Below are positions 6,383 to 32,583 of a stretch of DNA of 32,721 nucleotides, in pieces; the first letter of the stretch is position 1, and every line of letters begins with the position of its first letter. The notes under the pieces are model-generated. The model was given only the letters and a program-made list of their open reading frames with translations. It searched no databases and had not been told where the DNA came from. The DNA lies in contig JAAEPW010001361.1 of NCBI GenBank assembly GCA_024232355.1, positions 1-32,721 of the forward strand, in the 5' to 3' direction. This DNA is from Chloroflexota bacterium (GTDB lineage: Bacteria; Chloroflexota; Anaerolineae; B4-G1). A program made the translations under genes and the position numbers.

Positions 6383-7603
6383 CTACTCTCCTCCGGCCGC
6401 CATCCCCGCAATGGCGCCGCTGGTAAACGCATACTGCAAGTTGTACCCTCCACACGGCCCCACCACGTCCAGCACCTCGCCCGCCAGGTAAAGTCCCTTT
6501 ACCCGGCGAGATGCCATGCTGTGCGGAACCACCTCGGTCACCGGCACGCCGCCGGTAGACAATTGGCTGAATTTGAATTCGCGTGTTCCTTTGACCTTGA
6601 CCGAGATGCTGATGAGCAAGCCCAACAACTTTTCCAAGCTCCGGTTTGATATCTGATTCAGGCAAACGTCCGGCCCTAATCCCGCCAACCACAAAAAGAC
6701 TGGCGGGATTTTGACCGGCAAGACCGCGCCCAAGATGACGCGCATCGAGATTGGATCGGCTCGCTTGCGGGCGATGAGTTGGCGCAGTTCTTCCAGGTGA
6801 TGGGGGATCAGGTTAAGCGTCAATCGCAGGGGCGGTCCCTCGTGGGTGCTGACCAGATGGCTCAAGTTCATCGAGGCCGGGCCACTGAAACCGAATCGAG
6901 TAAACAGCATGTTGCCCACCGTCTCGTGCAACTTGTTGTCCCCTTGAAAGAGAGCCAATCCCACGTCCAGCCGCACCCCCTGGAGTTTGTGAAAACGCTT
7001 GACGTCAGCACGGATGGGCACCAACGCCGGATGAATGGGCACGACAGTATGCCCCAGTTCCTTCAGCAGCGGAAAGCACTCCCCCTTGGAGCCCAGCACC
7101 GGGTGCGCCTTGCCGCCAGCCGCCACGATCACCCGCTCGACGGTATAGGTGCGGGCGCCATCGGGGACATCGGCCTCCAGGACGAATTTCCCTTTCGACC
7201 GCCGGATGTGGACGATCTTGTGCCACAAATGAATCTCTACCCCCGCCAACTCTAACGCGGCGGCAAAAGTATCCACCACGGTGGCGGCCGAGTTGGACAG
7301 CGGGTAGCACCAACCGTCGTGGGTAGCGTAGGTGAGGATGCCTAGTTCGCGTAGTGTGACGCTCAGGTGCTCGTGGCCGAATTTCGCCAGGGCCTGTTCC
7401 AAAAAGGCCGGATCGGCGCAGGTGTAACGGTCGGCGGCGGCATTGGCATTGCTCAGGTTGCAGCGACCATTGCCCGTCACCAATAGCTTGCGGCCCACCA
7501 TCGGGTTCGAGTCAAACAGCAGCACCCGCGCTCCGCGTTTGGCCGCTTCCAACGCTGCCATCATTCCGGCTGGTCCGGTCCCGACAATCCCAACTTTTCC
7601 CAT
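6383..7603 (-). CDS. BaiN/HI0933-family flavoprotein (NAD(P)/FAD-dependent oxidoreductase)
   Basis: This encodes 406 aa. The N-terminal Rossmann motif VGIVGTGPAGMMAALEAAKRG binds FAD and is followed by the family hallmark GRKLLVTGNGRCNLSN. The C-terminal FAD-contacting segment VPHSMASRRVKGLYLAGEVLDVVGPCGGYNLQYAFTSG is typical of HI0933-like proteins, which include BaiN. Length is normal for the family. The exact substrate is not predictable; many members are annotated only as aminoacetone-oxidase-like. It begins the unit that continues into Nudix and alkyltransferase genes, with an AAAGGTG site before the ATG. Just upstream lies the 127-bp inverted-repeat element, which may carry or disturb its promoter. 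Confidence 0.9.
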   Translation of the reverse strand: MGKVGIVGTGPAGMMAALEAAKRGARVLLFDSNPMVGRKLLVTGNGRCNLSNANAAADRYTCADPAFLEQALAKFGHEHLSVTLRELGILTYATHDGWCYPLSNSAATVVDTFAAALELAGVEIHLWHKIVHIRRSKGKFVLEADVPDGARTYTVERVIVAAGGKAHPVLGSKGECFPLLKELGHTVVPIHPALVPIRADVKRFHKLQGVRLDVGLALFQGDNKLHETVGNMLFTRFGFSGPASMNLSHLVSTHEGPPLRLTLNLIPHHLEELRQLIARKRADPISMRVILGAVLPVKIPPVFLWLAGLGPDVCLNQISNRSLEKLLGLLISISVKVKGTREFKFSQLSTGGVPVTEVVPHSMASRRVKGLYLAGEVLDVVGPCGGYNLQYAFTSGAIAGMAAGGE

Positions 7604-7627
7604 TCAAAGCACCTTTGATCGAATTTG

Positions 7628-7754
7628 CTACCGGACACTTTTCACATATAAGCGAGAGATGTTGATTTTTTCTGCCACGAATTGCACGAATTTTCACAAA
7701 TTTCTCTCTCCACATTCGTGGTAATTCGTGGCTGAAGAAAAAAGTGTCCGGTAG
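7628..7754. mobile_element. 127-bp MITE-like element with 15-bp terminal inverted repeats
   Basis: CTACCGGACACTTTT (7628-7642) and its exact reverse complement (7740-7754) bound a non-coding 127-bp segment. Short direct repeats GATCGAAT flank it at 7617-7624 and 7760-7767, set three and five bases outside the arms, which could be a degraded or offset target duplication. The interior holds the TTCGTG-rich motif (7674-7700) also found at 614-640, plus a further ATTCGTGG pair. This is the architecture of a miniature inverted-repeat element without a transposase. It lies between the methyltransferase and flavoprotein genes. Confidence 0.6.
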
Positions 7755-7775
7755 TGAATGATCGAATGCTGATCA

Positions 7776-8588
7776 TTACTCTGGTAACCGCATCCGCGCG
7801 ACGAGCACGGGCGGAATCTCGCTAAAATTCCCACTCCACGACAGTGGATTTCGACCACTCGGATGGTCCGGGGGAAATGCCCGCTCTTCGAGGCCGTCGA
7901 GTACAAACCCCGCGTCGAATCCTGCACCTAGCAACGCCTCCAACGGCCGATGGAATACGAGTTGCGGCTTGGGTTGGCCCCGTATCGCGGCGGCCTGGGA
8001 TATCTTGGGGGTAAGATAGTGAAATACCTTGACCGAGTAGACGGTGACAATGTCGCCGTCCCGGTCCTCCATCTCGGCCACGAATTTCATATCTGGGCTG
8101 TTGAAACAGGGATGGATCACCGAAAAAACAAAACGTCCGCCAGGCCGAAGCAGCCGGACAAGGGCGCGCATCAACGGCTGGATGTCGGCGATGTCAAAGA
8201 GCGCCATCTGGCAGATGGCGGCGTCAAATTGCTGCTCGCCGAGGGTCAGCAACGTGGCCTCGTCGGTGGCGTCCATCACCCGGTATTCAATGCGCTCCGC
8301 GTGCTCGGTCGTGCGAGCACGGGCACGCTCGATCAACTGGGATGAAAAGTCAAAGGCGACGACGTCACCGCCTATGGCAGCCAACCGTCGAGCGTAGAGA
8401 CCGTTGCCGCACCCGGCGTCGAGCACCCGCTTGCCCGGATGCAGTTGGAGCAGTCGCTGCGTCGCAGGCCAGATCAGTACGTTGACGAAATCGTTGCCCT
8501 CGCCGATGTGATCGTCCCAATACGCGGCGTTCTGTTCCCAGGCGTCGCGAGTTTTCTCGTTGGCTCGTTGCAAGTCTACAGTTGTCAC
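7776..8588 (-). CDS. Class I SAM-dependent methyltransferase
   Basis: This encodes 270 aa from a GTG at 8588 with GAGGAGA seven bases upstream. The SAM-binding motif I is VLDAGCGNGLYARRLA, followed by motif II acid VVAFDFS and a motif III-like region DAAICQMALFDIADIQPLMRALVRLLRPGGRFVFSV. The N-terminal WEQNAAYWDDHIGEGNDF resembles UbiE/COQ5-type and other small-molecule methyltransferases. The target cannot be inferred; the C-terminal half (HYLTPKISQAAAIRG...FHRPLEALLGAGFDAGFVLDGLEE) is the usual substrate-side region. It lies 68 bases downstream of the AIM24-family gene on the same strand and could share its transcript. Confidence 0.9.
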   Translation of the reverse strand: MTTVDLQRANEKTRDAWEQNAAYWDDHIGEGNDFVNVLIWPATQRLLQLHPGKRVLDAGCGNGLYARRLAAIGGDVVAFDFSSQLIERARARTTEHAERIEYRVMDATDEATLLTLGEQQFDAAICQMALFDIADIQPLMRALVRLLRPGGRFVFSVIHPCFNSPDMKFVAEMEDRDGDIVTVYSVKVFHYLTPKISQAAAIRGQPKPQLVFHRPLEALLGAGFDAGFVLDGLEERAFPPDHPSGRNPLSWSGNFSEIPPVLVARMRLPE

Positions 8589-8656
8589 GAGATATCTCCT
8601 CTGTTCGTAGTAGGCGCTTCAGCACACCAAAGTGCGTACTACAAACGTAAACAAAT

Positions 8657-9346
8657 CTACCGAGCCTGCATGTACACTTCTTCAAAGGGCTGCAATAGCA
8701 CCCACCCCTCGCCCTTGAACTCTAGTTGAAATGACTCGCCGCTTCCCCGCCCAAGAAAGGACTTGAATGATAGATCGGTGCGAATACCTGGGTTCAACGT
8801 CCCCGCCCACGCCACCGTCGCGTTGGGGTCGGTGTAGACCGGCTGTCCCCGTCGAACCTGCAGCGCCAGGGGATCATAGTGTGTTGTGATGGCGACCATC
8901 CCCGGCCCCTCCAGCCGCACGTTGAACAGTCCCCCCGCCATCATTCCTGCCATGCGCCGCATCATTTTGATGTCCCACTTGACCTTGTCCTCAAACGCCA
9001 GCAGGTCGTTGCCGTTCACGTGGATGGCCTCGTTTTGTAGATTCAGGACCTGGACCTTTTTTCCTTTGTCGGCCAGATAGACTCGTCCCTGGCCCTCAAC
9101 CTTCATCAACTTTGTTCCTTCTCCAGAGACCATCTTTTTCACGAGTTTACCCACCCCGTGCTCCAACGCACCCTCTCGCGTGAACTTGACCTGGCCCACG
9201 TATCCGATCATGCTGCCAAGTTTTGCCCACACCCGTCCCTTGAGATTGACTTCCAACAGATAAGGATTTTCAATCTCAAAGGGATTGTTCGCCGCATCGC
9301 TCTGCGCCGCAGACTTTATGAATTCTTCTACTGAATAGCTCGACAT
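8657..9346 (-). CDS. AIM24 family protein
   Basis: This encodes 229 aa with an AAGGAGAG site before the ATG. The sequence has the family's pattern of repeated beta strands and short motifs ([77 protein letters not shown], and a C-terminal [41 protein letters not shown]). Bacterial members are of unknown biochemical function; the name comes from a yeast mitochondrial inner-membrane protein. There is no signal peptide or membrane segment. A promoter candidate lies at 9419-9446. Confidence 0.88.
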
Positions 9347-9418
9347 TTTTCTCTCCTTTCTGAATCTGGACTATCTGATAGTTTCCAATGTTCTCATCCA
9401 AGATACAGTTGCTACCGC

Positions 9419-9446
9419 AGTTTACCACAGGAAAAGTATTTATCAA
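9419..9446 (-). promoter_or_regulatory. Candidate promoter for the AIM24-family gene
   Basis: On the minus strand TTGATA (9446-9441) and TAAACT (9424-9419) are separated by 16 bases. They lie about 75 bases upstream of the ATG at 9346 in an intergenic gap with no other gene. Confidence 0.45.
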
Positions 9447-9489
9447 AATCAAGCCGACGAGCAGTTGGAACTTTTTCGGTCAGGCTCGA

Positions 9490-11082
9490 CTAGTCGTTCC
9501 TCTTTACAAGCGGCAGATAGATGAGTGAGGGCTCGACCAGTCTGGGGTTGGCAAACTGCTGTCCCAATATCTCGATCTCGTCGGGTGCGAGGGTTCCGGT
9601 CTCGTCATCTCCCTGCCACACAGCCAGGACGATGCCGACAGCGTCACTGATGTGCGCCGCTATAGCGACCCGGTCGGCGTCAAAGGCGGGGTCGCCGTCG
9701 TTGTTCCCCGCGTCGCTGATGCGGAAATCGTCTTCGCCGAGCGCGGCGCCGGTGCTTCCATCCAGCCATTGGCCAAAGATCTCCATCTCGTCGTTAACCA
9801 AGGGGCCGTCACCAAAGTCACGGTCGTCGTCGCCCCGCCAGACGACCAGGTACTCGTCCAACGCAGGGATGTAAAGCGCCTCGGCGCCAAAGGTTTTAAA
9901 GGTCGGGTTTCCGTCTGGCCCCATATCGCTGATGCGAAAGTCGTTATCACCGGTTTCGGTGCCGTCGGCGGCCAAGTGTTGGCCAAAGACTTCTAGCTCA
10001 TCGTTGGACAGAGGACCACTGCCAAAGTCACGGTCGTCGTCACCTGACCAGACGACCAGGTAGGTGTTGGTGTCGCGGTTGTAGGCTACGGCGGGGTTGT
10101 CGGCGGCGTAGGCGGTATTTCCGTTTGGCCCCATATCGCTGATGCGAAAGTCGTTATCGCCGACGGGGCTGCCATCGTCGGCCAAGCGTTGGCCAAAGAT
10201 TTCCAACTCGTCGTTTACCAGGGGCAGGGTGTCGTCGTCCCCTTCCCACACCACCAGGTATTCGTCGTCGGTCGAGTTGTAGGCGACGGCAACGTCTTGG
10301 GCTCTAAAACGCTTGTCCGTATCGGAGGTGCCCATGTTGCTGATGAAAAAATCATCAGTGCCGATCTCGGCACCGGTGGCAGCGTTCAAGCGCTGGCCGT
10401 AGATTTCGATCACGTTGTCGAGCGCGTTGTCGCCGTGCCAGACAACCAGGTATTCGTTCTGGGTGGGATTGTAGGCCAAGGACGGGTTAAAGGCGTCGAA
10501 AGCAGGGTCGCCGTCGGTTCCCATCGTGCTGATGCGAAAATCGTCAGTGCCGACAGGGCTGCCACCGGCGTCCAATCGTTGACCATAGATCTCTATTTCG
10601 TCATCCACTCCGGCGTCCGCTTGCCAGACGACCAGATATTCGTCATCAATGCTGTTGTAAGCGACGGCGGGGTCGTAGGCGTCAAGAGTGGAATCGCCAT
10701 CGCTCCCGACGTTGCTGATGCGGAGCCTGGAACCGGTGGGGGCACCGGTAGCAGCGTTCACGCGCTGGGCATAGATTTCGAACTCGTCGTTTGCTAAATC
10801 CCCGCTCTCGTCGTCGGCTGCCCAGACGATCAGGTGTTCGTTTGCACTGCTGTTGTAGGCTATGGCCGGGTCGAGGGCAAAGAAACGGGTGTCCGCGTCT
10901 GGTCCCATATTGCTGATGCGGAAATCTTGGCCGATCAGTTGGGGCGCGGTGATACTCGATCCGGCGGGCGCGGGCGCAGCTCCGGCCAAGCGGGGTATCC
11001 GCCTGATCAAGATCGCCCCCAGGATGCACACGCCTATGAAGCAAAGTAATGGATACAGGGTTAGTTTTCTTCTAGGCATCAT
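9490..11082 (-). CDS. Exported seven-repeat protein, putative beta-propeller
   Basis: This encodes 530 aa (529 if the second ATG at 11079 is used; that ATG is better spaced from AGGAGGAT, which overlaps the upstream stop). The N-terminus has a positively charged start and a hydrophobic helix (LLCFIGVCILGAILI), then a Pro/Ala linker. Seven repeats of 60-70 residues follow, each with DFRISxMGxDG, PAVAYNxxxxEYLVVWxGDD and NDExEIFGQRL blocks. Seven such units suggest a seven-bladed beta-propeller; the many Asp residues could bind Ca2+. The protein ends in SLIYLPLVKRND, a tail typical of exported Chloroflexota proteins. It probably forms an operon with the S74-domain protein upstream. I do not know its ligand. 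Confidence 0.85.
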   Translation of the reverse strand: MMPRRKLTLYPLLCFIGVCILGAILIRRIPRLAGAAPAPAGSSITAPQLIGQDFRISNMGPDADTRFFALDPAIAYNSSANEHLIVWAADDESGDLANDEFEIYAQRVNAATGAPTGSRLRISNVGSDGDSTLDAYDPAVAYNSIDDEYLVVWQADAGVDDEIEIYGQRLDAGGSPVGTDDFRISTMGTDGDPAFDAFNPSLAYNPTQNEYLVVWHGDNALDNVIEIYGQRLNAATGAEIGTDDFFISNMGTSDTDKRFRAQDVAVAYNSTDDEYLVVWEGDDDTLPLVNDELEIFGQRLADDGSPVGDNDFRISDMGPNGNTAYAADNPAVAYNRDTNTYLVVWSGDDDRDFGSGPLSNDELEVFGQHLAADGTETGDNDFRISDMGPDGNPTFKTFGAEALYIPALDEYLVVWRGDDDRDFGDGPLVNDEMEIFGQWLDGSTGAALGEDDFRISDAGNNDGDPAFDADRVAIAAHISDAVGIVLAVWQGDDETGTLAPDEIEILGQQFANPRLVEPSLIYLPLVKRND

Positions 11083-13518: not shown

Positions 13519-13602
13519 ACATCGCTACACCGGTTTGACGAATCAAGCCGCAGGATTGACGAATCAAACCACCGGTTTGACGGATCAAACCACCGGTTTG
13601 AC
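13519..13602 (-). repeat. Tandem 21-bp hairpin repeats spanning the end of fdhA
   Basis: Four units of 21 bp lie head to tail (13582-13602, 13561-13581, 13540-13560, 13519-13539); the first two are nearly identical and the last is half degenerate. Each good unit, read on the minus strand, folds as TCAAACC-GGT-GGTTTGA, a 7-bp stem with a 3-nt loop. The first unit includes the last codons and stop of fdhA (VKPVV-stop). Because 21 is a multiple of three, every unit repeats the same reading frame with a stop. There is no T-tract. Likely effects are transcript stabilisation, partial termination or slippage-driven variation. Confidence 0.75.
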
Positions 13603-15633
13603 GCTTACCGCGCAAACCTTGAATTCTGGAATCTTGGCGATGGGGTCCATCGCGGGATTGGTCAGCGCGTTGGCGGCTGCCTCGGCAAAGTGGAACGGGA
13701 TAAAGACCACACCGGGTCGGATGTAGGGCGTGACCCGCGCCACCAATTCGATCTCTCCCCGGCGGCTGGCAACCCGCACCCGCTGGTGGCCGTTCAGCCC
13801 GATTTGGGCTGCGTCGTCGGGATGGATCTCTACGTAGGCTTCCGGCACCTCTTGATCCAGTTTTTCCGTGCGGCGCGTCATCGTGCCGGTGTGAAAGTGG
13901 AACATGATCCGTCCGGTGGTCAGGATAAAGGGATATTCCTCGTCCGGCAGCTCTACCGCTTCCTTGAATTGGATCGCGTGGAACTTGCCCAGGCCGCGGC
14001 TAAACTTGCCCTTGTGCAGGAATGGCGTGCCGGGATGGTCGGAGCCTGCCACTGGCCATTGGAGAGAACCTTCTTTTTCCAGCCGTTCGTAGGAAACCCC
14101 ACCATAAATGGGGGACACCTGCGCGATCTCGTCCGTCACCTTTGATGGCGAGTCGAAATCGAACCCGGCGGCTCCCATCTGCTGCGCCAGTTGGCGGATG
14201 ATCTGCCAATCGGCCTGGGCGTCTCCATCCAACTCGACTGCCTTGTGCACCAGTTGGACACGCCGGTCGGTGCCGGTGAATGTGCCGTCTTTTTCCGCAT
14301 ACGAAACCCCCGGCAGGACTACGTCGGCCAGTTCCGCCGTCTCGGTGAGGAAAATATCCTGCACCACCAAAAAGTTCAGTTCTTCCAGGCAATGGCGGAT
14401 GTGATTGACGTCGGCGTCAGACAGCATTGGGTTCTCGCCCATCACGTAGAGGGCTTTTAGACGGCCATCTCCGGCGGCGGCCATCATCTCGGTCACCGTC
14501 AGTCCGACTTGGTCAGACAAACCATCCACGCCCCACGCTTGCTCGAATTTTTCCTTCACCGGCGGCAGCGTGACCGCTTGGTAGCCAGGGTAGACGTTGG
14601 GCAGGCCGCCCAGGTCACACGCGCCCTGGACGTTGTTCTGCCCGCGCAGGGGATTGACCCCGCCTCCGGCAATGCCCATATTACCGGTCAGCATCGCCAG
14701 GTTGGCGCATGATTTGACGTTGTCGGTGCCGGTGGTGTGCTGGGTGATGCCCATCGCATAGAGGATGGCGGCGGGTTTGCTTGTCGCGTACATCCGGGCC
14801 GCTTCTCGCAGGTCGTCGGCTGGGATACCGCTGATCTCTTCCACCCGCTCCGGGGTATATTCCGCTACCACCGCTTTTAGTTCCTCGTACCCCTCGGTCC
14901 GTTCCTCGACAAAGGTCTTGTCCTCCAGTCCCTCACTGATGATGACGTTCATCATCCCGTTGATCCAGGCCACATCGGCGCCGGGCCGGAAGGACAGGTA
15001 GAGGTTGGCCAGGCGGCTGATCTGCACCTCTCGGGGGTCCACGACGACGATCTTGGCCCCTCGCTCCTTCGCCTCCATAATGTGGCTGGCGACCAACGGA
15101 TGAGCCTCGGTGGTATTGGACCCAGTGATAAGGAAGCACTCGGTGTGCGTGCCAAACTCTGGGACAGAGTTGGTCATCGCCCCACTCCCAAACGCGGCGA
15201 CCAAACCGGCCACCGTGGGAGCGTGTCAGAGACGGGCGCAGTGATCGACGTTGTTCGTCTTTATCACCGCGCGGGCGAACTTTTGCAAGAGATAGTTTTC
15301 CTCGTTGGTGCACTTGGCCGAGGTCAAAAAACCGACGCTGTCCGGGCCGGACTCGTCGCGGGCGGCGCCCAATTTCTCGGCCACTAGCGACAACGCCTCG
15401 TCCCACGTTGCCTTTTCCAATTTGCCATCTTTTCGGACGAGGGGGGTCTTGAGCCGCTCGGGATGGTTGACAAATGATCCTGCGTTCCAACCCTTGATGC
15501 ACAAACTCCCCCGGCTAATGGGATGCTCCTTGTCTGGGAGGACGCCCACGATTTCCCCGTCGAGCACCTGAAGATAGAGCCTGCAACCGGCTCCGCAATA
15601 GATGCAAGTGGTGAGTACATTTTTATATTCCAT
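13585..15633 (-). CDS. fdhA: Formate dehydrogenase alpha subunit, selenoprotein (in-frame UGA read as Sec136)
   Basis: This encodes 682 aa if the in-frame TGA at 15226-15228 is read as selenocysteine. The flanking sequence NNVDHCARLUHAPTVAGL matches the Sec site of molybdenum/tungsten formate dehydrogenases, where Sec or Cys binds the metal; no other stop interrupts the frame. N-terminal Cys10, 13, 17 and 45 (CIYCGAGC...SLCIKG) bind a [4Fe-4S] cluster. Later blocks (GSNTTEAHPLV, MGITQHTTGTDNVKSCANLAMLTGNMG, GVNPLRGQNNVQGACDLG) are the pterin cofactor region, and the C-terminal ~115 residues form the molydopterin dinucleotide-binding domain. Known reaction: formate to CO2 plus two electrons, reversible. 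It lies downstream of mvhA and hicBA, with GGGAG about ten bases before its ATG. A fitting SECIS hairpin follows the TGA. Confidence 0.93.
15183..15228 (-). promoter_or_regulatory. Bacterial SECIS element of fdhA
   Basis: Starting at the TGA (15228-15226), the minus strand folds with a lower stem CGCTCCCA/TGGGAGTG (15223-15216 with 15190-15183) and an upper stem CGGTGGCC/GGTCGCCG (15215-15208 with 15202-15195, two G-U pairs), closed by the loop GGTTT. The GGU of the loop begins 18 bases after the TGA, as in the E. coli fdhF element as I recall it. SelB would bind this loop to insert Sec. Confidence 0.8.
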
Positions 15634-15667: not shown

Positions 15668-15913
15668 TCACTCTGCATAGAAATGGGGCCTCAGTTCCTC
15701 AGCCAAGATATAGCGGCTTGCCTGTCGGAAAATGGCCCGCAAGGTACCAGTGTCGAGTTCTCGGTGTTGTGGAATGGTGAGGGTCTGTTTCACACCATCA
15801 GGGGCAATGCGCCGTAACTTGACGTGGCTTCCCCGTTGAGAATGCACGGTGAAACCAAAATGCTCCAAGATACGGATAACCTGAGCCCCTGAGAGACGGC
15901 GCAATTTAGGCAT
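15668..15913 (-). CDS. hicA: HicA-type toxin (mRNA interferase)
   Basis: This encodes 81 aa. It has the small double-stranded-RNA-binding-like HicA/YcfA fold: LRRLSGAQVIRILEHFGF, then the catalytic His30 in GSHVKLRR, then LTIPQHRELDTGTLRAIFRQA. HicA toxins cleave mRNA and block translation until bound by HicB. The gene starts inside the last codons of hicB (eight-base overlap), the usual arrangement with antitoxin first. It sits between mvhA and fdhA, inside the redox cluster, so any transcript from hdrA to fdhA must run through it. All motif residues appear intact. Confidence 0.9.
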   Translation of the reverse strand: MPKLRRLSGAQVIRILEHFGFTVHSQRGSHVKLRRIAPDGVKQTLTIPQHRELDTGTLRAIFRQASRYILAEELRPHFYAE

Positions 15914-16142
15914 AGACAGGTTCCATCTCCATAGTAACCAGCACAGGAGGGTTAGGCGCCAGTCCCATCTCTTTCAAGTCCTCCCCCTCCAAATGAAGTA
16001 GAATCGCCTCTCTCAAGTTCTGAACTGTCTCGTCCAGTGTCTTGCCCTGGGTGACCACAGCCAAATCCAAGCATTCGGCCACATATCCGGCCTTGTCTCC
16101 AGGATAAATCATTGCCTGGATAGTATAGCGTTGTGTACCCAT
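15906..16142 (-). CDS. hicB: HicB-type antitoxin
   Basis: This encodes 78 aa from the ATG at 16142, with AAGGAGGAG four bases upstream; the longer open frame upstream overlaps mvhA and is not used. The sequence YTIQAMIYPGDKAGYVAECLDLAVVTQGKTLDETVQNLREAILLHLEG is the HicB partial RNase H-like fold that masks the toxin. There is no C-terminal helix-turn-helix or ribbon-helix-helix domain, so it may not repress its own promoter by itself. It begins 32 bases after the mvhA stop, leaving little room for a separate promoter. Confidence 0.88.
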   Translation of the reverse strand: MGTQRYTIQAMIYPGDKAGYVAECLDLAVVTQGKTLDETVQNLREAILLHLEGEDLKEMGLAPNPPVLVTMEMEPVYA

Positions 16143-16174
16143 CAGTCTCCTCCTTGCCCCAAACGAAAAGCTCC

Positions 16175-17638
16175 TCAATCTCGACGGATCTCTTGTACCA
16201 ACTCGCGCTCGTGGTTGTAGATGTTGACGATCATCGGCATTTGCCCCGGCAGCGCGTGCGTGGCGCATCCAAGACAGGGGTCGTAGGCGCGGAAGGCCAT
16301 CTCGATCGTGTTGAGGATTCCGTCGCTCACCGGTTGGCCAGGCTGTACCAGGCCCTCGGCGGCTTTTTTAACCGACATGTTCATCGCGGCATAATTGTTC
16401 GTCGTGCCAACGATGAGGTTGACCTTTGTGAGCAGGCCGCGCTCGTCTGTGACATAGTGATGCGTCAACGTGCCGCGCGGTGCCTCGACGATGCCCACAC
16501 CCTCGGTCGGTGTCTCGGTCGGGATCGTATGTACGTCCGGGCTGGTGATCTCTGGGTCTTGCACCAATTCCAGCATCCGTTCGGCGGCGTAGAGCAACTC
16601 GATAAGGCGCGCCCAGTGCGTGGCCAGCGTGGCGTGGACGGGCTTGCCGCCCAGCGTGTCGTAGAAACGCTCGTACTCGGCCTGGGCCAGCGGCGTCGCC
16701 ATTCCGTCGGCGGCGTTGAGGCGGCTGAGCGGGCTGGCGCGATAGACGCCGCTGTCGGGGCCATCCACGAACCCCTTCCAACCGACTTCTTTGAGGTAGG
16801 GGAACTTGAGGTACGTCCACGGCTCGACGTGCTCGGCCACCACGTCCAGATACTGCTCAGGGCTGTACTTGACCAACTCTTTGCCGTCTGGCCCCACGAC
16901 GCGCACGTTGCCATCGTAAAAGTTGACGTGATTGTTCTCGTCCATCAGGCCCATATAATAGGTCTGGTGGTTGAACATGTCGCTCAGAATCAGATCGACG
17001 TAGGCCTGGTTCCCCAGCACCACGTCGTTAAAGAGTTGCAGCGAGAACTGGGCGATCTCGATCGAGTTCTTGGAGATCTCGAGGATGCGGTCCCGCTGCT
17101 CCTTGTCGATAGGCTTGCTCATTCCACCGACGATGCAGCTCACCGAGTGAATGTAGCGTCCGGCGATGATGGCGGCGACCTCGTGGTTCTCTTGCAAGAG
17201 CTGTACTACCTTGCCGCCAATCTCCAGACCGACCTTTTTGACGACGCCCAAGAGATTGCGTTCCTCCTTGGGCGCGTCAGGCCCGACGACAAAGTCTGGC
17301 CCGCCCAGCGCGTAAAAGTGGGTCGCGTGATCGGCGACAAAGAAAGACGAATAGACCAACTCGCGGAGCTTTTTGGCCGCCGGTGGCGGGTCTACGTGAT
17401 ACACGGCGTCGCCCGCCTTGGCCGCCGCCATGTGGTGTGCCAGGGGGCAAACACCGCAGATGCGCTGCGTGATGCGCGGCATCTCTTCTACGGGGCGGCC
17501 CTCGCAAAACTTTTCAAAACCTCGCAACTCGGGGATGATCAGGTAGGCGTTTTCCAACCCACCAGCCTCATTCAGAAACAGATCGATGCGGCCGTGCCCT
17601 TCGAGACGCGTGATCGGATCAATGCTAATTTTTTTCAT
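16175..17638 (-). CDS. mvhA: [NiFe]-hydrogenase large subunit, group 3 (MvhA-like)
   Basis: This encodes 487 aa. The active-site cysteines are present in both conserved places: [11 protein letters not shown] (C61, C64) near the N-terminus and DPCLGCATH (C455, C458) near the C-terminus; together they hold Ni and Fe(CN)2CO. A 26-residue extension follows H461 (ALPGQMPM...), the peptide that maturation proteases remove after nickel insertion, so the enzyme needs a HyaD/HycI-type protease, which is not in this window. The N-terminal [14 protein letters not shown] is also typical. It would oxidise or produce H2 in the cytoplasm with MvhG and pass electrons through MvhD to HdrA. Its gene follows mvhG by nine bases. 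Confidence 0.93.
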
Positions 17639-17647
17639 AACTATAAC

Positions 17648-18616
17648 CTACCTATACTTTAGCTCGCTCAAGACAGAGTTTGCCAGTCCAAAGCGATAAC
17701 TCAGTCCCGTCGGGTCGACGATGGTGCTCAGAATCTCTTGTAGCTTTTCCGGCTCGTCGGTATCGATCAGCGCACCGATGGCGCTCATCAACTTGGCTCC
17801 CTGATCGACCACACCTTCAGGTGGGCCGTAGCAGCCGCGGCACGGCATATTGCCACTGATGCACGGCAAGCCGCAACCGGCGCGAGTCGCCGGGCCGCAG
17901 CAAACGATGCCCTGCGCCAGGAAACACAAATCCGGATCGAGCGACACCTCGTGCGGGCGCTTCCATTCCTGAACACGAAAGCCGCTCTCGCCCTTTTCTC
18001 GCGGGCAGACGTCGCAATTAGTCTTGGGGTCCACACCGACGACGCTGCCCTTGGGCGGAAGTTCGCCACTCAACAGCACCTGCAACACGGTCCATATCTG
18101 ATCCGCCACCGGCGGACAGCCAGGCACAAAGTAATCCACGTCTACCGTCTGGGCCAGGGTCTTGACCTGCTCGTAAAAGTTTGGCAGCTTGATCTCGCCT
18201 TCGGGCACACGGGTCGTCGTCTGCGGGCGGACGCCGCGCGAGTCATCCAAAGACGGCACGGTATCATAGACGCGTTCCAGGATCGACTCGGCATCGTAAC
18301 AGTTTGCCAGGCCAGGGATACCGCCCGTGTGGGAGCACGATCCAAAAGAGATCATGATCTGAGATTTCTGACGCAACAGATTGGCGACGTGCTCATTCTC
18401 GTTGGAGCGGATCGCGCCGTTGAAAAAGCAAGCCGCAATCTCTTGGTCCGCCAGCGCCTCGACGTCGCTGTATTTAAAGTCCATAAGGCACGGCCAAAAG
18501 ACAATGTCTACCAGGTCACCGACTTTGATCAAATTTAAACCCAGTTCCACGACACTGATCTCACAACCTCCGCAACTGGCAGCCCAATAGAACGCAAGCT
18601 TTGGTTTTGCCGTCAT
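17648..18616 (-). CDS. mvhG: [NiFe]-hydrogenase small subunit (MvhG-like)
   Basis: This encodes 322 aa. It belongs to the NADH-ubiquinone oxidoreductase 20-kDa-related family: AFYWAASCGGCEISVVEL (C15, C18), ISFGSCSHTGGIPGLAN and DYFVPGCPPVADQIW supply the proximal [4Fe-4S] ligands. The C-terminal half adds a Cys-rich region (TNCDVCPREKGESG, CCGPATRAGCGLPCISGNMPCRGCYGPPEGVVDQG) for further clusters, as in group 3 hydrogenases. There is no twin-arginine signal, so it is cytoplasmic. It carries electrons from the NiFe site towards the MvhD/HdrA proteins. The ATG overlaps the stop of the upstream fusion gene by four bases with GAGGAGGT before it. Confidence 0.92.
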   Translation of the reverse strand: MTAKPKLAFYWAASCGGCEISVVELGLNLIKVGDLVDIVFWPCLMDFKYSDVEALADQEIAACFFNGAIRSNENEHVANLLRQKSQIMISFGSCSHTGGIPGLANCYDAESILERVYDTVPSLDDSRGVRPQTTTRVPEGEIKLPNFYEQVKTLAQTVDVDYFVPGCPPVADQIWTVLQVLLSGELPPKGSVVGVDPKTNCDVCPREKGESGFRVQEWKRPHEVSLDPDLCFLAQGIVCCGPATRAGCGLPCISGNMPCRGCYGPPEGVVDQGAKLMSAIGALIDTDEPEKLQEILSTIVDPTGLSYRFGLANSVLSELKYR

Positions 18617-19572
18617 TGCTGCACCTCCTCTTGGGCTGTCAGGTGTTCCAACATGCCGTCTACCTCGTTGCGGATAGCGCCGCGGTCCTGCGTGCCGATC
18701 TGTACAAAGCGGACGCGGCCATCGTTCACGTTGATCTGGTCAAACATTTGGTTCAGCAGCCCGATCTTGCAGGCGCTGACATAGGTACCCCGCTGATAGT
18801 GACACTCGCCCGGCTTGCAGCCGCAGATGAGCACGCCGTCGATGCCAGAGCGCAGCGCCAACAGCGCCATCTGTGGGTCATTTCGTCCGGAACAAGGAAT
18901 GTGGACAACGCGCACGTTCTCCGGGTAGCTCTCTAGCAAGGATACATCATCGGCAGCGCGCAAGCACCAGTCGCAAACAAAAACGAGCAAGCGCGGCGCG
19001 CCGTTCTGCTTGATATCGAGCTGAGCGACGATCTCATCATTGCTCAACCCCGGACGCGAGATCGCGCCCGGCGGGCAGGCCGCGACGCATATGCCGCAGC
19101 CCATACACTTGTTGGCGTCCACCTCAGAGACGCTGTCCATCTCACCATCGATCTCTTTCCCGACCAGGTGAAGGGCTTCGTAGGGGCAGGCCATCACGCA
19201 AACGGAACAGCCGGAACAGAGCGTCTCGTCCACCATGACGGTCTCTAGCGGTGACTCGTACCCCGCCTCGACGGCCAATTGCTTGACCGCGCCGATGACG
19301 CCCGAGATGTAAATCTCTTGCGGGCAGGCTGGGTAGCACAGGTCGCACGCCGAGCACTGCCATGTGGTTGGGCTCTTGAACGCCTCCTCCTCCAGCCCCA
19401 GCATCACCAGTCGCAGCAGGCGGCGCGGGTTGTACTCTGGCTCGACCTTTTGCTGGATCATGCACTTGCTGACGCACGTCCCGCAAGCATAGCACACCGC
19501 CAGGTGTTCGCCGCCAGGGATGGCCCGGACTCTATCGGCAAAAGTTTCTGTTAATTTACCGTGACTTTGCAT
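18613..19572 (-). CDS. HdrC-ferredoxin-MvhD fusion protein
   Basis: This encodes 319 aa combining three modules. Residues 1-90 resemble HdrC, with two clusters (CYACGTCVSKC from C27, and CSACDLCYPACP). Residues about 110-175 are a 2[4Fe-4S] ferredoxin (CSGCSVCVMACP, CMGCGICVAACPPGA). Residues about 190-305 are MvhD, with VFVCDWCLRAADD, VRVVHIPCSGRNDPQMALLALRSGIDGVLICGCKPGECHYQRG, which holds a [2Fe-2S] cluster and links hydrogenase to HdrA in methanogens. Such a fusion would give one protein bridging MvhAG and HdrA. HdrC normally partners HdrB, but no hdrB is present. The gene has an AGGAGA site and follows a 137-bp gap, which could contain its own promoter. Confidence 0.9.
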   Translation of the reverse strand: MQSHGKLTETFADRVRAIPGGEHLAVCYACGTCVSKCMIQQKVEPEYNPRRLLRLVMLGLEEEAFKSPTTWQCSACDLCYPACPQEIYISGVIGAVKQLAVEAGYESPLETVMVDETLCSGCSVCVMACPYEALHLVGKEIDGEMDSVSEVDANKCMGCGICVAACPPGAISRPGLSNDEIVAQLDIKQNGAPRLLVFVCDWCLRAADDVSLLESYPENVRVVHIPCSGRNDPQMALLALRSGIDGVLICGCKPGECHYQRGTYVSACKIGLLNQMFDQINVNDGRVRFVQIGTQDRGAIRNEVDGMLEHLTAQEEVQQ

Positions 19573-19709: not shown

Positions 19710-20528
19710 TCAAAGCAATTCTGACTCTACCTGCAACGGCGCGTCGCTCAGTGTGAGAGAAACCGGGGGTTCGATTGCAATGTCCGCTCCCGGAATATAC
19801 CCCAACAGATCCCCTATATCCCGCCGGATCAGGTCGTAGAGGACGGTCAGCGGGATGTGGGAGGGGCAGGTCAACTCGCACTGGCGGCAGGCCACGCAAC
19901 GGCTCGACATGTGCATCGCCTTGATCAAGTGGAACATGGGGAAAGGCGGGGCCAGTACCCCCGGCTCTACCCACAGCGGGTCCTCCAGCGCGCAAGCCTC
20001 GCAAAAGCAGACCGGGCAAAAGTTGCGGCAGCCATAGCACTTTATGCATTTGAGGAATTGCTGTTGCCAGAATTCGCGCCGTTCATCCAACGACATCTCT
20101 TCGTACTCAACGACGAGTGGATTGGGCGGCGCGCCCTTCACTGGCGTTCCGAAGGCTTTTCCCTGCGGCCAGACGTCGACGTCAGGCGCGGGATCAGCGC
20201 AATAGCACGCCTCGGCCTCCTCGACAGTGCAGGCCATTCCCAGGAGGTATAGCCGGTCGGGGTCTATTTGATTTCGCTTGGACATCTCTACCATCGCGCG
20301 GGCATCACACCCCCGCGCCACGATGCCAAAGCGTGCCTCAGGGTATCGCTTTTGCAGCAGAGAGACCGTGGAAGCCAGCGGGTAGCGAGGGCCCAGCACC
20401 AATTGCTCAAGATCATCTCCCGCTCGGAAAAGGTGCGGCGCAACGCCTTCTGTTGTCCGTCGCAGCGCGACCACGCCGTCCAGTTCCTGTAATTTATCAG
20501 CTATGTGGGTTTTGAGTTCTTTTATCAT
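19710..20528 (-). CDS. FrhB/FdhB-like iron-sulfur oxidoreductase subunit
   Basis: This encodes 272 aa. The N-terminal part (FGIVARGCDARAMVEMSKRNQIDPDRLYLLGMAC) resembles the beta subunit family of F420-reducing hydrogenases and formate dehydrogenases. Two Cys-rich segments follow: CIKCYGCRNFCPVCFCEAC and CVACRQCELTCP, consistent with two or more [4Fe-4S] clusters. It probably passes electrons between formate dehydrogenase or another donor and the HdrA core; whether it binds flavin is not clear from sequence. The ATG overlaps the stop of mvhD by four bases, and the Shine-Dalgarno GGTGGAGG is part of the 24-bp repeat at the end of mvhD. Its exact partner is unsure. Confidence 0.75.
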   Translation of the reverse strand: MIKELKTHIADKLQELDGVVALRRTTEGVAPHLFRAGDDLEQLVLGPRYPLASTVSLLQKRYPEARFGIVARGCDARAMVEMSKRNQIDPDRLYLLGMACTVEEAEACYCADPAPDVDVWPQGKAFGTPVKGAPPNPLVVEYEEMSLDERREFWQQQFLKCIKCYGCRNFCPVCFCEACALEDPLWVEPGVLAPPFPMFHLIKAMHMSSRCVACRQCELTCPSHIPLTVLYDLIRRDIGDLLGYIPGADIAIEPPVSLTLSDAPLQVESELL

Positions 20529-20992
20529 GCGCCTGCCTCCACCGGATGTCGTTTATCCGCCTCCACCGGATGTAGTTCATCCGCCTCTTTTGCAATCGGT
20601 CCCAGCGCCCGTACCACCTCGACAAATTCATTCGTCACTTTGGCAAACTTGGGGGCCTCTGCCGACGATACCCAGTCCAGCCGGAACCGGTCAGGATGGA
20701 TACCCACATAGGTCAACAGATTGTGCAACAGCGGCATGCGTTTGATCGTCCGGTGATTACCGTCGATATAATGGCAATCGCCGATGTGGCAGCCCAGCAC
20801 CATCACGCCGTCGGCGCCGGATCGAAAGGCCCGCAGGACCATCTCTGGCGATACCCGCCCCGAGCACATCACGCGGATGGGCAGGACGTTGGGCGGGGAC
20901 GGCATGCGTGCGATGCCTGCGTTGTCTGCTCCAGCATAGGAGCACCAGTTACATAGAAAAGCTACAACTTTGGGTTCAAATAATTCGCTCAT
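20525..20992 (-). CDS. mvhD: Stand-alone MvhD, hydrogenase delta / iron-sulfur linker
   Basis: This encodes 155 aa. It matches the MvhD family: VVAFLCNWCSYAGADNAG, IRVMCSGRVSPEMVLRAFRSGADGVMVLGCHIGDCHYIDGNHRT, with five Cys positions for a [2Fe-2S] cluster. It is the second MvhD domain in this operon, the other being fused in the gene at 18613-19572. In methanogens MvhD bridges hydrogenase or formate dehydrogenase to HdrA. The C-terminus carries an in-frame eight-residue duplication (ADELHPVE, ADKRHPVE), unusual for the family. It follows hdrA by 16 bases. Confidence 0.93.
   Translation of the reverse strand: MSELFEPKVVAFLCNWCSYAGADNAGIARMPSPPNVLPIRVMCSGRVSPEMVLRAFRSGADGVMVLGCHIGDCHYIDGNHRTIKRMPLLHNLLTYVGIHPDRFRLDWVSSAEAPKFAKVTNEFVEVVRALGPIAKEADELHPVEADKRHPVEAGA
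20535..20582 (-). repeat. Two tandem 24-bp repeats at the end of mvhD
   Basis: Units 20535-20558 and 20559-20582 share GCCTCCACCGGATGT and ATCC, differing at two bases. They encode the repeated peptide AD(E/K)(L/R)HPVE. The copy nearest the stop supplies GGTGGAGG, the Shine-Dalgarno of the next gene. Confidence 0.85.
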
Positions 20993-21008: not shown

Positions 21009-22988
21009 CTACACCGCCAGTTTCAGCAGCGCGTCGATCTGGGCCACGATCTGCTCGTCGGTAAAATGAAGAGCCGTAATGGCTCCAGACGGGCAAGTGG
21101 CAATGCACGTACCGCAGCCATGACACAGCGCTGGGTTGATCTCTGCCTTTCCTTCGACGCCGCGCGCGATGGCGGTGTACGGGCAGGACACAATACACTC
21201 GCCGCAGCCCACGCACCGCTCAGGGATCACCTCGGCAATGGTGGGCGAGATGGTGACTTCCCCTTGGTTGAACAGGCGGACTGCCTCCAACGCCGCCGCA
21301 CCGGCGTGAGCCACCGTGTCGGGCACGTCTCGTGGCCCCTGGGCGCATCCGGCCAAAAAAACTCCCGCCGTGGCCGTCTCTACCGGACGCAGCTTGGGAT
21401 GAGCCTCAGCAAACCAACCATCGGGCGTGCGACCGAGGCCAAAGGTGAATGCGATCCGGTCGGCGTCCGGCGGCGGCTCGATGGCCGTTGCCAGGACCAC
21501 CATATCCACGTCCAGTACCAGCACCCGGCCCAGTTGGATGTCCTCAACCTCGATATAGAGCTTGTTGGTGACCGGGTCTACCGTGACCTGAGATGGACGC
21601 CCTTGGATAAACTGGATGTCCTCGCTCCGATTCCGCCGGTAGAACTCTTCGTAATCCTTGCCAAAGGTCCGCATGTCCATGTAAATGCTATAGACCTCGG
21701 CCCCGGTCTTTTCCTTGATCTGGTGCGCCTGTTTGAGAGAGTACATGCAGCAAAAGCGGGAACAGTAAGCGTGCGCCCGTTCATCTCGACTGCCGACGCA
21801 ATGGATGATGGCCACCTTTTCCGGATTTTTTCCCTCGCTGGTTAAAATCTCGCCGTCGGTAGGGCCAACAGCGCTGGTGAGCCGCTCGAACTCGAGGCCG
21901 GTGAGAATGTTGGGCGATTTGCCAAAGCCATAATCGGGCAGTTGCGTGGGATCCCACATCTCAAAGCCCGTGGCGACGACGATGGCCCCGACCTGGAGAT
22001 CGACGAAGGTCTCTTCCATTTCGAAATCGATCGCCCCAGGCCCGCAAGCATCGACGCACTTTTGGGTGCATTTGCCCTTGGTCAATTGGAGACAACTGTT
22101 AGGGTCAATGACGGCTTTGAACGGTATCGCCTGGGCAAAGGGGATATAAGCGGCCGCGCGCTTGCCCATACCGGCTTCGAATTCGGACGGCACCATCAGC
22201 TTGCCCTTGCCTCTTCGGAGTATGCAAGCTTCTTGGCACTGACCGCAGCCGGTGCATTTTTCCACATCGACGTAGCGAGACTCGCGCCGCACCCGTACGT
22301 CGAAATTGCCCACGTATCCCTGTACCTCGACCACCTCGCTATAGTCTAGCAGTGTGATGTTGGGATGCCGACCGGCATCCATCATTTTGGGGCCGAGAAT
22401 TCATATACTACAGTCCAACGTGGGAAACGTTTTGTCCAACTGGGCCATATGGCCGCCGATGGTCGGCTTCTTTTCCACCAGGTAGACCTGGTAGCCAGAG
22501 TCGGCGATGGAGAGTGCGGCCTGAATGCCCGCGATGCCACCACCGACAACCAGTGCGGCCTGGGTGACCGGCTCCTGACGCGCCTCCAGTGGCACGTGAT
22601 AGGCCACACGCGCCACCGCCGAACGCACCAGCCGCTTGGCCTTTTCCGTCCCTGCTTCTTTGTCGCGGATTACCCAAGAGACGTGCTCGCGGATGTTGGC
22701 CATCTCGAAAAAGTAGGGGTTAAGCCCGGCCCCAGCGACCGCCCGCCGGAACGTAGGCTCGTGCATCCGGGGCGTGCAGGATGCAACGACGACCCGGTTA
22801 ATGCCCAGGTCACGAATATCCTCCTGGATCAGTACTTGGCCCGGCTCGGAACACGTGTACTTGTGCTGCCGGGCGATCACGACGCCGGGTAGTTTGGCGG
22901 CCATCTCTACCACGGCGGGCACATCGACCGTCGCTGCGATGTTGACGCCGCATTCACAGATATAGACGCCGATTCGAGGTTCTTCCAT
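21009..22988 (-). CDS. hdrA: Heterodisulfide reductase subunit A-like protein, selenoprotein (in-frame UGA read as Sec196)
   Basis: This encodes 659 aa if the single in-frame TGA at 22401-22403 is read as selenocysteine. The context TLDCSIUILGPKM aligns with the family motif in which this residue is Cys or, in some methanogens, Sec. The N-terminal region ([27 protein letters not shown]) binds a [4Fe-4S] cluster; [27 protein letters not shown] is the FAD-binding core where electron bifurcation occurs. Ferredoxin-like inserts follow ([24 protein letters not shown]) and a C-terminal 2[4Fe-4S] ferredoxin ([27 protein letters not shown]). It is first in its operon, with AAGGAG eight bases upstream and a promoter about 265 bases upstream. 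Confidence 0.92.
22355..22403 (-). promoter_or_regulatory. Candidate SECIS element of hdrA
   Basis: Downstream of the TGA (22403-22401) the minus strand forms GGATGCC (22380-22374) / GGCATCC (22369-22363) with loop GGTC, extended by TGAT/ATCA (22384-22381 with 22358-22355) across a 4-nt bulge. The loop begins 27 bases after the TGA, within the range I know for bacterial SECIS hairpins, and contains GGU as in fdhA. Confidence 0.65.
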
Positions 22989-31494: not shown

Positions 31495-32583
31495 CTAGAC
31501 TTGTGCTCCAAACTCTTGCAGCAATGTTGCTACCTTGCTGCGATCCGTCTCGTCCTCGTGCTCGGCTTGGGCCCAACCGAGGGGCGTCAGGTTCCTTTTG
31601 CTGTCTCTGGCGTTCACATCGGCACCGTGTTCCAGCAAAAGCCGGGGTATCTCTGGCAAAAGATAGTATACGCCGTGTTCCTGTGTGACTTGAGACATTG
31701 GCTTGACGTCGAGTTTTTTATGCCCACGCCATACGGCCATGTGGAGGGGCGTCATATTGTGGATGACGGGGAATTTGGCGTTGACGTCGGCCCCATGCTC
31801 CAGCAAGAGCTCGGCAATTTCAATGCGACCAAATTGCACTGTCAGGTGCAGGGCGGTCAAGCCGGGTTCGAGTGTGTGATCGTCATCCGTGACTGCGCGA
31901 GCCAGCGCGGGATCCGATTCGAGCGCAGACACCACGGTCTCCGTTTCGCCAAGGATACAGGCCAAAAAAATGTCAATTTCGACACCAGCTTGATCGAGCA
32001 GGAAGCGCAACAAGTTGATGGTGTTAAAGGTGCCCACCCCGTGGCTGGCGACCCAACGCAGCGGCGTGGTACGGCCCCATTTCGCGTCGAGCTTGGCGTG
32101 CAGATCAGCTCCGTGGTCCAACAAGAACTGTGCCCTTTCGATAGTATGTGCATAACAAAGAGGAGTGCCGTTGTCGGGGCCGACAGCATTAACCGCTGCG
32201 GGATCTTTTTCCAGGAGGGCTTTGATTCCCTCGTCGTCATCCGTCCACAAGAGGGCGAACATGTCCTTTTGTGCGCCGCGAGAGATGAGAAAATCGACCA
32301 TTCCCAGCTCGGCGTAATCGGGCATAAAGTCGGCCAGATCGATGGCATGGAGCAGGGCGTTGAACCCGTGCTTTTCGTCCTTTTCGTTGATGTCTGCCCC
32401 GTGAGCCAGCAAGAGATCGACGATGTCTTTGCGACCGTGCATCACAGCCACGTGCAAGGCCGTGGCATCCGCACGCCAAATCGCGGTCTCTACTCGCCCG
32501 GTGGCGCCGGCCAGAGCGGGTTCTTTTGCCAACAAAGCCTTGGCTTGAGTTGCATCACCTTTTATGGCCGCCGTAAAGAGCAA
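31495..32583 (-). CDS. Ankyrin-repeat protein
   Basis: This encodes 362 aa of ankyrin repeats from first to last residue. Clear units include ATALHVAVMHGRKDIVDLLLAHGADINEKD, GLTALHLTVQFGRIEIAELLLEHGADVNAK and IPRLLLEHGADVNARDSKRNLTPLGWAQ; weaker units fill the middle. There is no signal peptide, so it should act in the cytoplasm by binding a partner protein that cannot be named here. The start is uncertain: the frame opens with TTG at 32583 and has no ATG before residue 48 and no clear Shine-Dalgarno, though the first residues already fit a repeat. Upstream in frame there is a stop at 32605. An unusual start or a small upstream disruption is possible. Confidence 0.85.
   Translation of the reverse strand: MLFTAAIKGDATQAKALLAKEPALAGATGRVETAIWRADATALHVAVMHGRKDIVDLLLAHGADINEKDEKHGFNALLHAIDLADFMPDYAELGMVDFLISRGAQKDMFALLWTDDDEGIKALLEKDPAAVNAVGPDNGTPLCYAHTIERAQFLLDHGADLHAKLDAKWGRTTPLRWVASHGVGTFNTINLLRFLLDQAGVEIDIFLACILGETETVVSALESDPALARAVTDDDHTLEPGLTALHLTVQFGRIEIAELLLEHGADVNAKFPVIHNMTPLHMAVWRGHKKLDVKPMSQVTQEHGVYYLLPEIPRLLLEHGADVNARDSKRNLTPLGWAQAEHEDETDRSKVATLLQEFGAQV

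Follow-up and report, generated by a model that had tools for sequence, protein, structure and literature searches.

A predicted selenocysteine-containing HdrA in a hydrogenase and formate dehydrogenase gene cluster of a Chloroflexota bacterium

The window analyzed here is a stretch of 32,721 nucleotides (32.7 kb) from a Chloroflexota bacterium, and its minus strand carries an hdrA gene (21009..22988) that would encode 659 amino acids with selenocysteine (Sec) at codon 196. Translated with TGA as U, the minus-strand frame running from 22988 to 21009 holds a single internal stop in its 659 codons, the TGA at 22401..22403 (minus strand), and the rest of the frame is free of internal stops, just as the original prediction had described; under translation table 11 the gene is split into open reading frames of 195 and 458 aa. 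The TGA lies in the motif TLDCSI-U-ILGPKM, a CxxU form in which the second Cys of the CxxC is replaced, and the aligned homologues have Cys, in agreement with the earlier placement of the codon at the Cys position of the family motif. The product resembles HdrA over its whole length: the best solved HdrA chain matches residues 1-655 with 761 bits (E 8e-228), and the NCBIfam HdrA model NF040770 scores 818.6 bits over residues 5-655. The latter match takes up model positions 1-641 of 777, while positions 647-776 match a separate mvhD gene behind hdrA. With each of the three NCBIfam models for HdrA, the score stays under the curated threshold (NF040770, 818.6 of 1100 bits; NF041778, 592 of 1400; NF041891, 551 of 1300).

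Behind hdrA on the same strand stand the mvhD/flpD-like gene for an electron-transfer subunit in its Cys form (20525..20992; PF02662, 1.4e-51), an fdhB/ElpB-like iron-sulfur subunit gene (19710..20528) that matches the beta chains of formate dehydrogenase in 9t1s, 7bkb and 8rvu (E 7.2e-33 to 3.4e-28), and one gene in which HdrC-like, ferredoxin and FlpD/MvhD parts are fused (18613..19572; family and solved-chain matches). Family matches then identify a vhuG-like small hydrogenase subunit (17648..18616) and a vhuA-like [NiFe]-hydrogenase large subunit without an in-frame TGA (16175..17638), followed by a small ORF without a Pfam match (15906-16268), a HicA toxin gene (PF07927; 15668-15913) and fdhA (13585..15633). 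Well apart from these, also on the minus strand, an ORF at 31495-32583 encodes an ankyrin-repeat protein of 362 aa. From its family matches and in-frame UGA, fdhA is a second predicted selenoprotein gene, for the formate dehydrogenase alpha subunit, and frame reading puts Sec136 at 15226..15228 (minus strand) in the motif CARL-U-HAPTVAGL, which we take to be the usual Sec site of the FdhA family. The Rfam model SECIS_3 (RF01989) matches 15173..15231 of the minus strand with 53.2 bits (E 9.7e-10), short of the Rfam gathering score of 63. At the end of the same gene, TGA serves as the normal stop.

The gene order is not the same in all relatives. Loci L001 and L002 are arranged hdrA-mvhD-fdhB-fdhA-hdrC/mvhD, followed in L002 by vhuG-vhuA, and because fdhA stands directly behind the fdhB-like gene in these loci and not in the window, one of the two orders is rearranged. 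In L001, the nearest relative, the cluster is followed by ORFs (6590-10433) that presumably encode FdhD, formate-tetrahydrofolate ligase and FolD and so hint at a Wood-Ljungdahl context. HdrB has two CCG domains; a regular-expression search found no HdrB-type CCG motif in the 32.7-kb window, and an hdrB may lie elsewhere in the genome. The same type of search found a CCG motif pair upstream of hdrA in 14 of 21 loci (L001-L018, L023, L024 and L028), three of which (L001, L016 and L024) hold fewer than 200 bases upstream of the gene; L002 has one unconvincing minus-strand match, and L009 has no such motif despite 10 kb upstream of hdrA.

Just behind the hdrA UGA, the minus strand contains a hairpin like a bacterial SECIS element (22363..22380), GGAUGCC-GGUC-GGCAUCC, with a stem of 7 bp, a folding energy of -12.3 kcal/mol and a loop 27 nt behind the UGA. 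According to the available text of a 2026 review that also covers Sec-HdrA, a bSECIS has an apical loop of 3-9 nt with G in the first two positions, a stem of 4-16 bp and a distance of 16-37 nt from the UGA (PMC13188914), and the window hairpin lies within these ranges in stem, loop and spacing. In the bacterial SECIS search that had been proposed, the hairpin agrees with the bSECIS rules, and Rfam returned zero matches to it at E values of up to 5. Taken from the window alone, the hairpin is weak evidence, because the same stem is kept in 551 of 20000 random trials of synonymous re-coding. GAT, GGT and CAT, the codons used in the hairpin, account for a minority of the Asp, Gly and His codons of these genes (30, 12 and 34%, respectively).

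Relatives were taken from a scan of GTDB-species contigs (77 loci, from the best 80 of 338 matches), and there the hairpin follows the codon. The complete 7/7 stem is present in 22 of 24 TGA rows as against 0 of 60 TGT/TGC rows, one of the 60 matching the weakest Sec rows in hairpin score; the motif expression used for these counts misses L001, which reads PKL and yet has both TGA and the full hairpin. The GGU-loop hairpin of the original prediction is confirmed as a GGUC loop that tracks TGA and not TGT/TGC. The motif recovers 47 distinct TGA rows, and when the best hairpin of each is chosen by search, every one fits the rules of the review (PMC13188914), the stem never being shorter than 6 bp and the loop being GGUC, GGC or GUU. 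The covariation in the hairpin was assessed on 37 hand-picked GGUC-loop rows, with near-duplicates left out; the copies in L023 (two, loop GUU) and in L089, L090, L113 and L117 (loop GGC) also lie outside this alignment and its pair counts. Among 31 distinct GGUC-form rows, pair 29/36 is C-G in 22, U-A in 8 and U-G in 1, and the change from C-G to U-A combines an Ala/Val replacement with a silent change of an Arg codon. Shuffled alignments reached the observed number of cells in 0 of 500 cases and the observed pairs and pair types in 475 of 500, and because of the latter figure the covariation rests on this one pair. The two tandem Sec-HdrA genes of L023 (L023:3022 and L023:5022) have a different hairpin, GGUGUCC-GUU-GGACGCC.

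The genomes of 17 relatives were searched for the Sec machinery, and matches over the curated cut-off were found for selB in 16, selA in 13 and selD in 16, the selD gene having one in-frame TGA in each of the 16. Among these 17 genomes, selA was absent from G003 and G004 and partial only in G013 and G016. A tRNA-Sec of at least 66 bits is present in 14 of the 17, a strong match being lacking in G004, G005 and G011; weaker matches, of about 45-49 bits, would raise the count to 15 of 17 but were set aside, since 5 of 14 control genomes also exceed the cut-off in this search. In G011, the Thermoflexus MAG of L012, whose completeness is not stated, selA is present and selB and selD are not over the cut-off. 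From the genomes of these relatives we infer that the organism of the window would likewise possess the machinery.

The Sec site is covered by 96 alignment rows, of which 24 have TGA, 70 have TGT or TGC (some of these being paralogues or poorly aligned) and 2 have another codon off the motif; L024, whose contig starts behind the site, was left out of the codon counts. TAA or TAG stands at the site in none of the 96 rows as against TGA in 24, which argues against an HdrA made as two chains, in which translation would stop at the UGA and restart at an ATG a few codons on, and the 458-aa product would assemble with the other half. The ATG directly after the UGA does fit such an arrangement, as does the C-terminal piece of 448-474 aa as which gene callers annotate Sec-HdrA among the matches listed. 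A protein search with the C-terminal 458 residues, whose length limits would have admitted full-length proteins, gave as its best 120 of 7999 scored proteins sequences that are 66-93% identical and all start directly behind the UGA. However, the FAD/NAD-binding domain matches in HdrA begin at residue 143-147, so the break would fall inside the FAD domain, and neither a hairpin of bSECIS shape and spacing nor the Sec machinery of the relatives is in keeping with a plain stop. We therefore consider it highly improbable that the protein is made in two pieces, and prefer the reading in which the UGA is decoded as Sec.

A lone stop in an otherwise intact frame would also fit a fresh nonsense mutation, a pseudogene or a sequencing error, the TGA then breaking a non-working HdrA gene. 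This reading has already been refuted by the conservation of the codon: among the loci retrieved, all 19 that span the site with an identity of 62% or higher carry TGA there (L001-L018 and L028, all Chloroflexota by title), and for this reason the TGA in hdrA is no one-off error or pseudogene. Furthermore, the TGA motif was found in 73 of 298 genomes, 9 of the 73 being already among the 77 GTDB loci, and a reversed control pattern had 0 matches in the same 298, which are an even draw from the class of the L002 genome (an Anaerolineales MAG), taken to be Anaerolineae. Coupled with a hairpin that accompanies TGA and not TGT/TGC, these counts leave a broken gene with almost no probability. The TGA is shared by another HdrA copy of L006, by the tandem pair of L023 (Chloroflexi) and by two copies of L077 (Zixibacteria). 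No Cys form of at least 60% identity is present among the best loci kept (best 80 of 338 matches), where the highest identity of a Cys-codon locus is 55% (L019, Bacillota), and Cys-HdrA is found in more distant Chloroflexota (L022, Dehalococcoidia, 53%, TGC; the second copy in L017, 41%, TGC). Least credible of all is a UGA read as another amino acid such as Trp, or read through without Sec, for although the inserted residue cannot be told from the open frame alone, fdhA on the same contig ends with TGA as a normal stop, Cys occupies the position in less closely related homologues, and fdhA is itself interrupted at what we take to be the usual Sec site of its family, with a SECIS_3 match. Insertion of Sec at UGA-196 in the organism of the window is, on these sequence comparisons, very probable.

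For the tree, 45 chosen loci of the 77 were combined with the window, and rows were accepted if they span from residue 20 or earlier to at least residue 600. This left 50 HdrA rows, 22 with Sec and 28 with Cys; L012, L024 and the second L023 and L077 copies are not among them. One supported clade (96/87) consists of 20 Sec rows including the window, whose HdrA groups with those of two Anaerolineales MAGs (100/100). The tree requires 3 changes between Sec and Cys, or 2 when well-supported branches only are counted. The two Zixibacteria Sec-HdrA (L077:10586 and L077:5447, 47% identity) have the same hairpin type as those of Chloroflexota, and in the tree the L077 copy adjoins, on long branches, the Cys-HdrA of an Altiarchaeota MAG. 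Perhaps the L077 Sec-HdrA reflects a separate gain of Sec, a loss or an exchange.

The alignment with Cys and Sec forms of HdrA that the original prediction had called for places Sec196 on Cys197 of PDB 5ODC chain A and on residue 197 of 9SFI chain A. The latter chain prints X, a non-standard residue, at this position, aligned with window 22401-22403; this X is probably Sec, and a solved Sec-HdrA thus probably exists. Cys197 of 5ODC HdrA is described in PMC9012536 as a cross-dimer ligand, bound to the partner's N-terminal 4Fe-4S cluster. This numbering is consistent with that of K409/E356, named in the 5ODC protein in the available part of PMC12054007, which fall on K419 and E368 of the window HdrA (the bifurcation Lys and Glu next to FAD). 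Residues C11, C13, C46 and C71 of the window HdrA likewise stand opposite Cys in the N-terminal domain of the 5ODC chain. Because Sec196 aligns with Cys197, its role is most likely that of a selenolate ligand of the 4Fe-4S cluster across the dimer. The hairpin just behind UGA-196 would direct SelB and Sec-tRNA to this codon and so give a full-length HdrA with Cys-x-x-Sec, and the selenolate would stand in for the Cys by which one HdrA protomer ligates the other's N-terminal 4Fe-4S cluster. That cluster would lie on the electron path between an arm of MvhD, hydrogenase and formate dehydrogenase and the bifurcating FAD.

Archaeal Sec decoding uses another SECIS type, which distinguishes the HdrAU of Methanococcus maripaludis from the system considered here. 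HdrAU is, in the accessible text of PMC11097638, a selenoprotein encoded with Vhu hydrogenase, a Cys isoform also being present. The earlier statement that Sec-HdrA is known in methanogens is correct as far as it goes, but Deltaproteobacteria and Firmicutes also have known members of the family: from what is accessible of the two reports, Sec-HdrA was described in 2006 in Syntrophobacter fumaroxidans, Syntrophus, Carboxydothermus and Moorella (PMC1794560), and HdrA1 of Desulfobacterium autotrophicum is another (PMC2702500). A table from 2016 gives the numbers 42 and 103 for HdrA (PMC5029168, available part). As in the window, genes for MvhD/FrhD and hydrogenase lie in one cluster with the Sec-HdrA genes of Syntrophobacter and Desulfobacterium (PMC1794560, PMC2702500). 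The window belongs to a different phylum and, with the proteins set side by side by description only, its mvhD and hydrogenase large subunit genes differ from those systems in having no in-frame TGA, and its cluster in holding an FdhB-like gene and the HdrC-MvhD fusion. Like the window cluster, the 9SFI entry contains hydrogenase delta and HdrC chains, and 9T1S also a formate dehydrogenase chain. The Cys-HdrA of 5ODC (HdrABC-MvhAGD), whose source is named Methanothermococcus thermolithotrophicus in the available text of PMC12350162 and M. wolfeii in that of PMC9012536, is a whole-length homologue of the window HdrA (748 bits), but has Cys where the window has Sec and works with HdrB, for which no gene was seen in the window. 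In the marine Chloroflexi single cell DscP3, as in the window, hdrA and mvhD adjoin a Sec formate dehydrogenase in a member of the Chloroflexota; unlike the window cluster, that of DscP3 has hdrBC, and the available text calls its formate dehydrogenase, but not its HdrA, selenocysteine-containing (PMC5736913). In their accessible parts, PMC5736913 and PMC4959059 both call formate dehydrogenases selenocysteine-containing and describe hdrA clusters, and a description of HdrA as a selenoprotein in Chloroflexota was not found in the accessible open-licence PMC literature, these two papers included. Sec-HdrA is thus an already described family, the spread of which in Chloroflexota we did not find in print in the open-licence PMC literature.

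Taken as a whole, we hold with high confidence that hdrA of the window encodes a selenoprotein, in which UGA-196 would be decoded by SelB and Sec-tRNA under the direction of the hairpin, the selenolate most likely replaces the Cys that serves as cluster ligand across protomers, and HdrA would serve as FAD hub in a soluble complex. As for this complex and its reaction, we infer from the gene cluster that it would comprise MvhD, the FdhB-like subunit, the HdrC-MvhD fusion, a VhuGA-type hydrogenase and the Sec formate dehydrogenase. A more specific proposal, which we offer tentatively and regard as rather doubtful, is that in this lineage an HdrB-free dimer of Sec-HdrA has become the centre around which a soluble H2/formate/ferredoxin enzyme is built, in which the MvhD and FdhB-like arm would bring in electrons from formate, the HdrC-MvhD fusion would bring in the hydrogenase, and the selenolate, as cross-protomer 4Fe-4S ligand, would link the two halves, Sec being the rule in this branch.

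Because gene callers split these genes at the UGA, such that the best 120 of 7999 matches are all C-terminal pieces, the annotation of this electron-transfer hub in anaerobic Chloroflexota is wrong. The placement of Sec at a reported cross-dimer 4Fe-4S ligand position makes the protein amenable to spectroscopy, and the occurrence of the TGA motif in roughly a quarter of the class genomes surveyed ties the H2 and formate metabolism of these bacteria to selenium.
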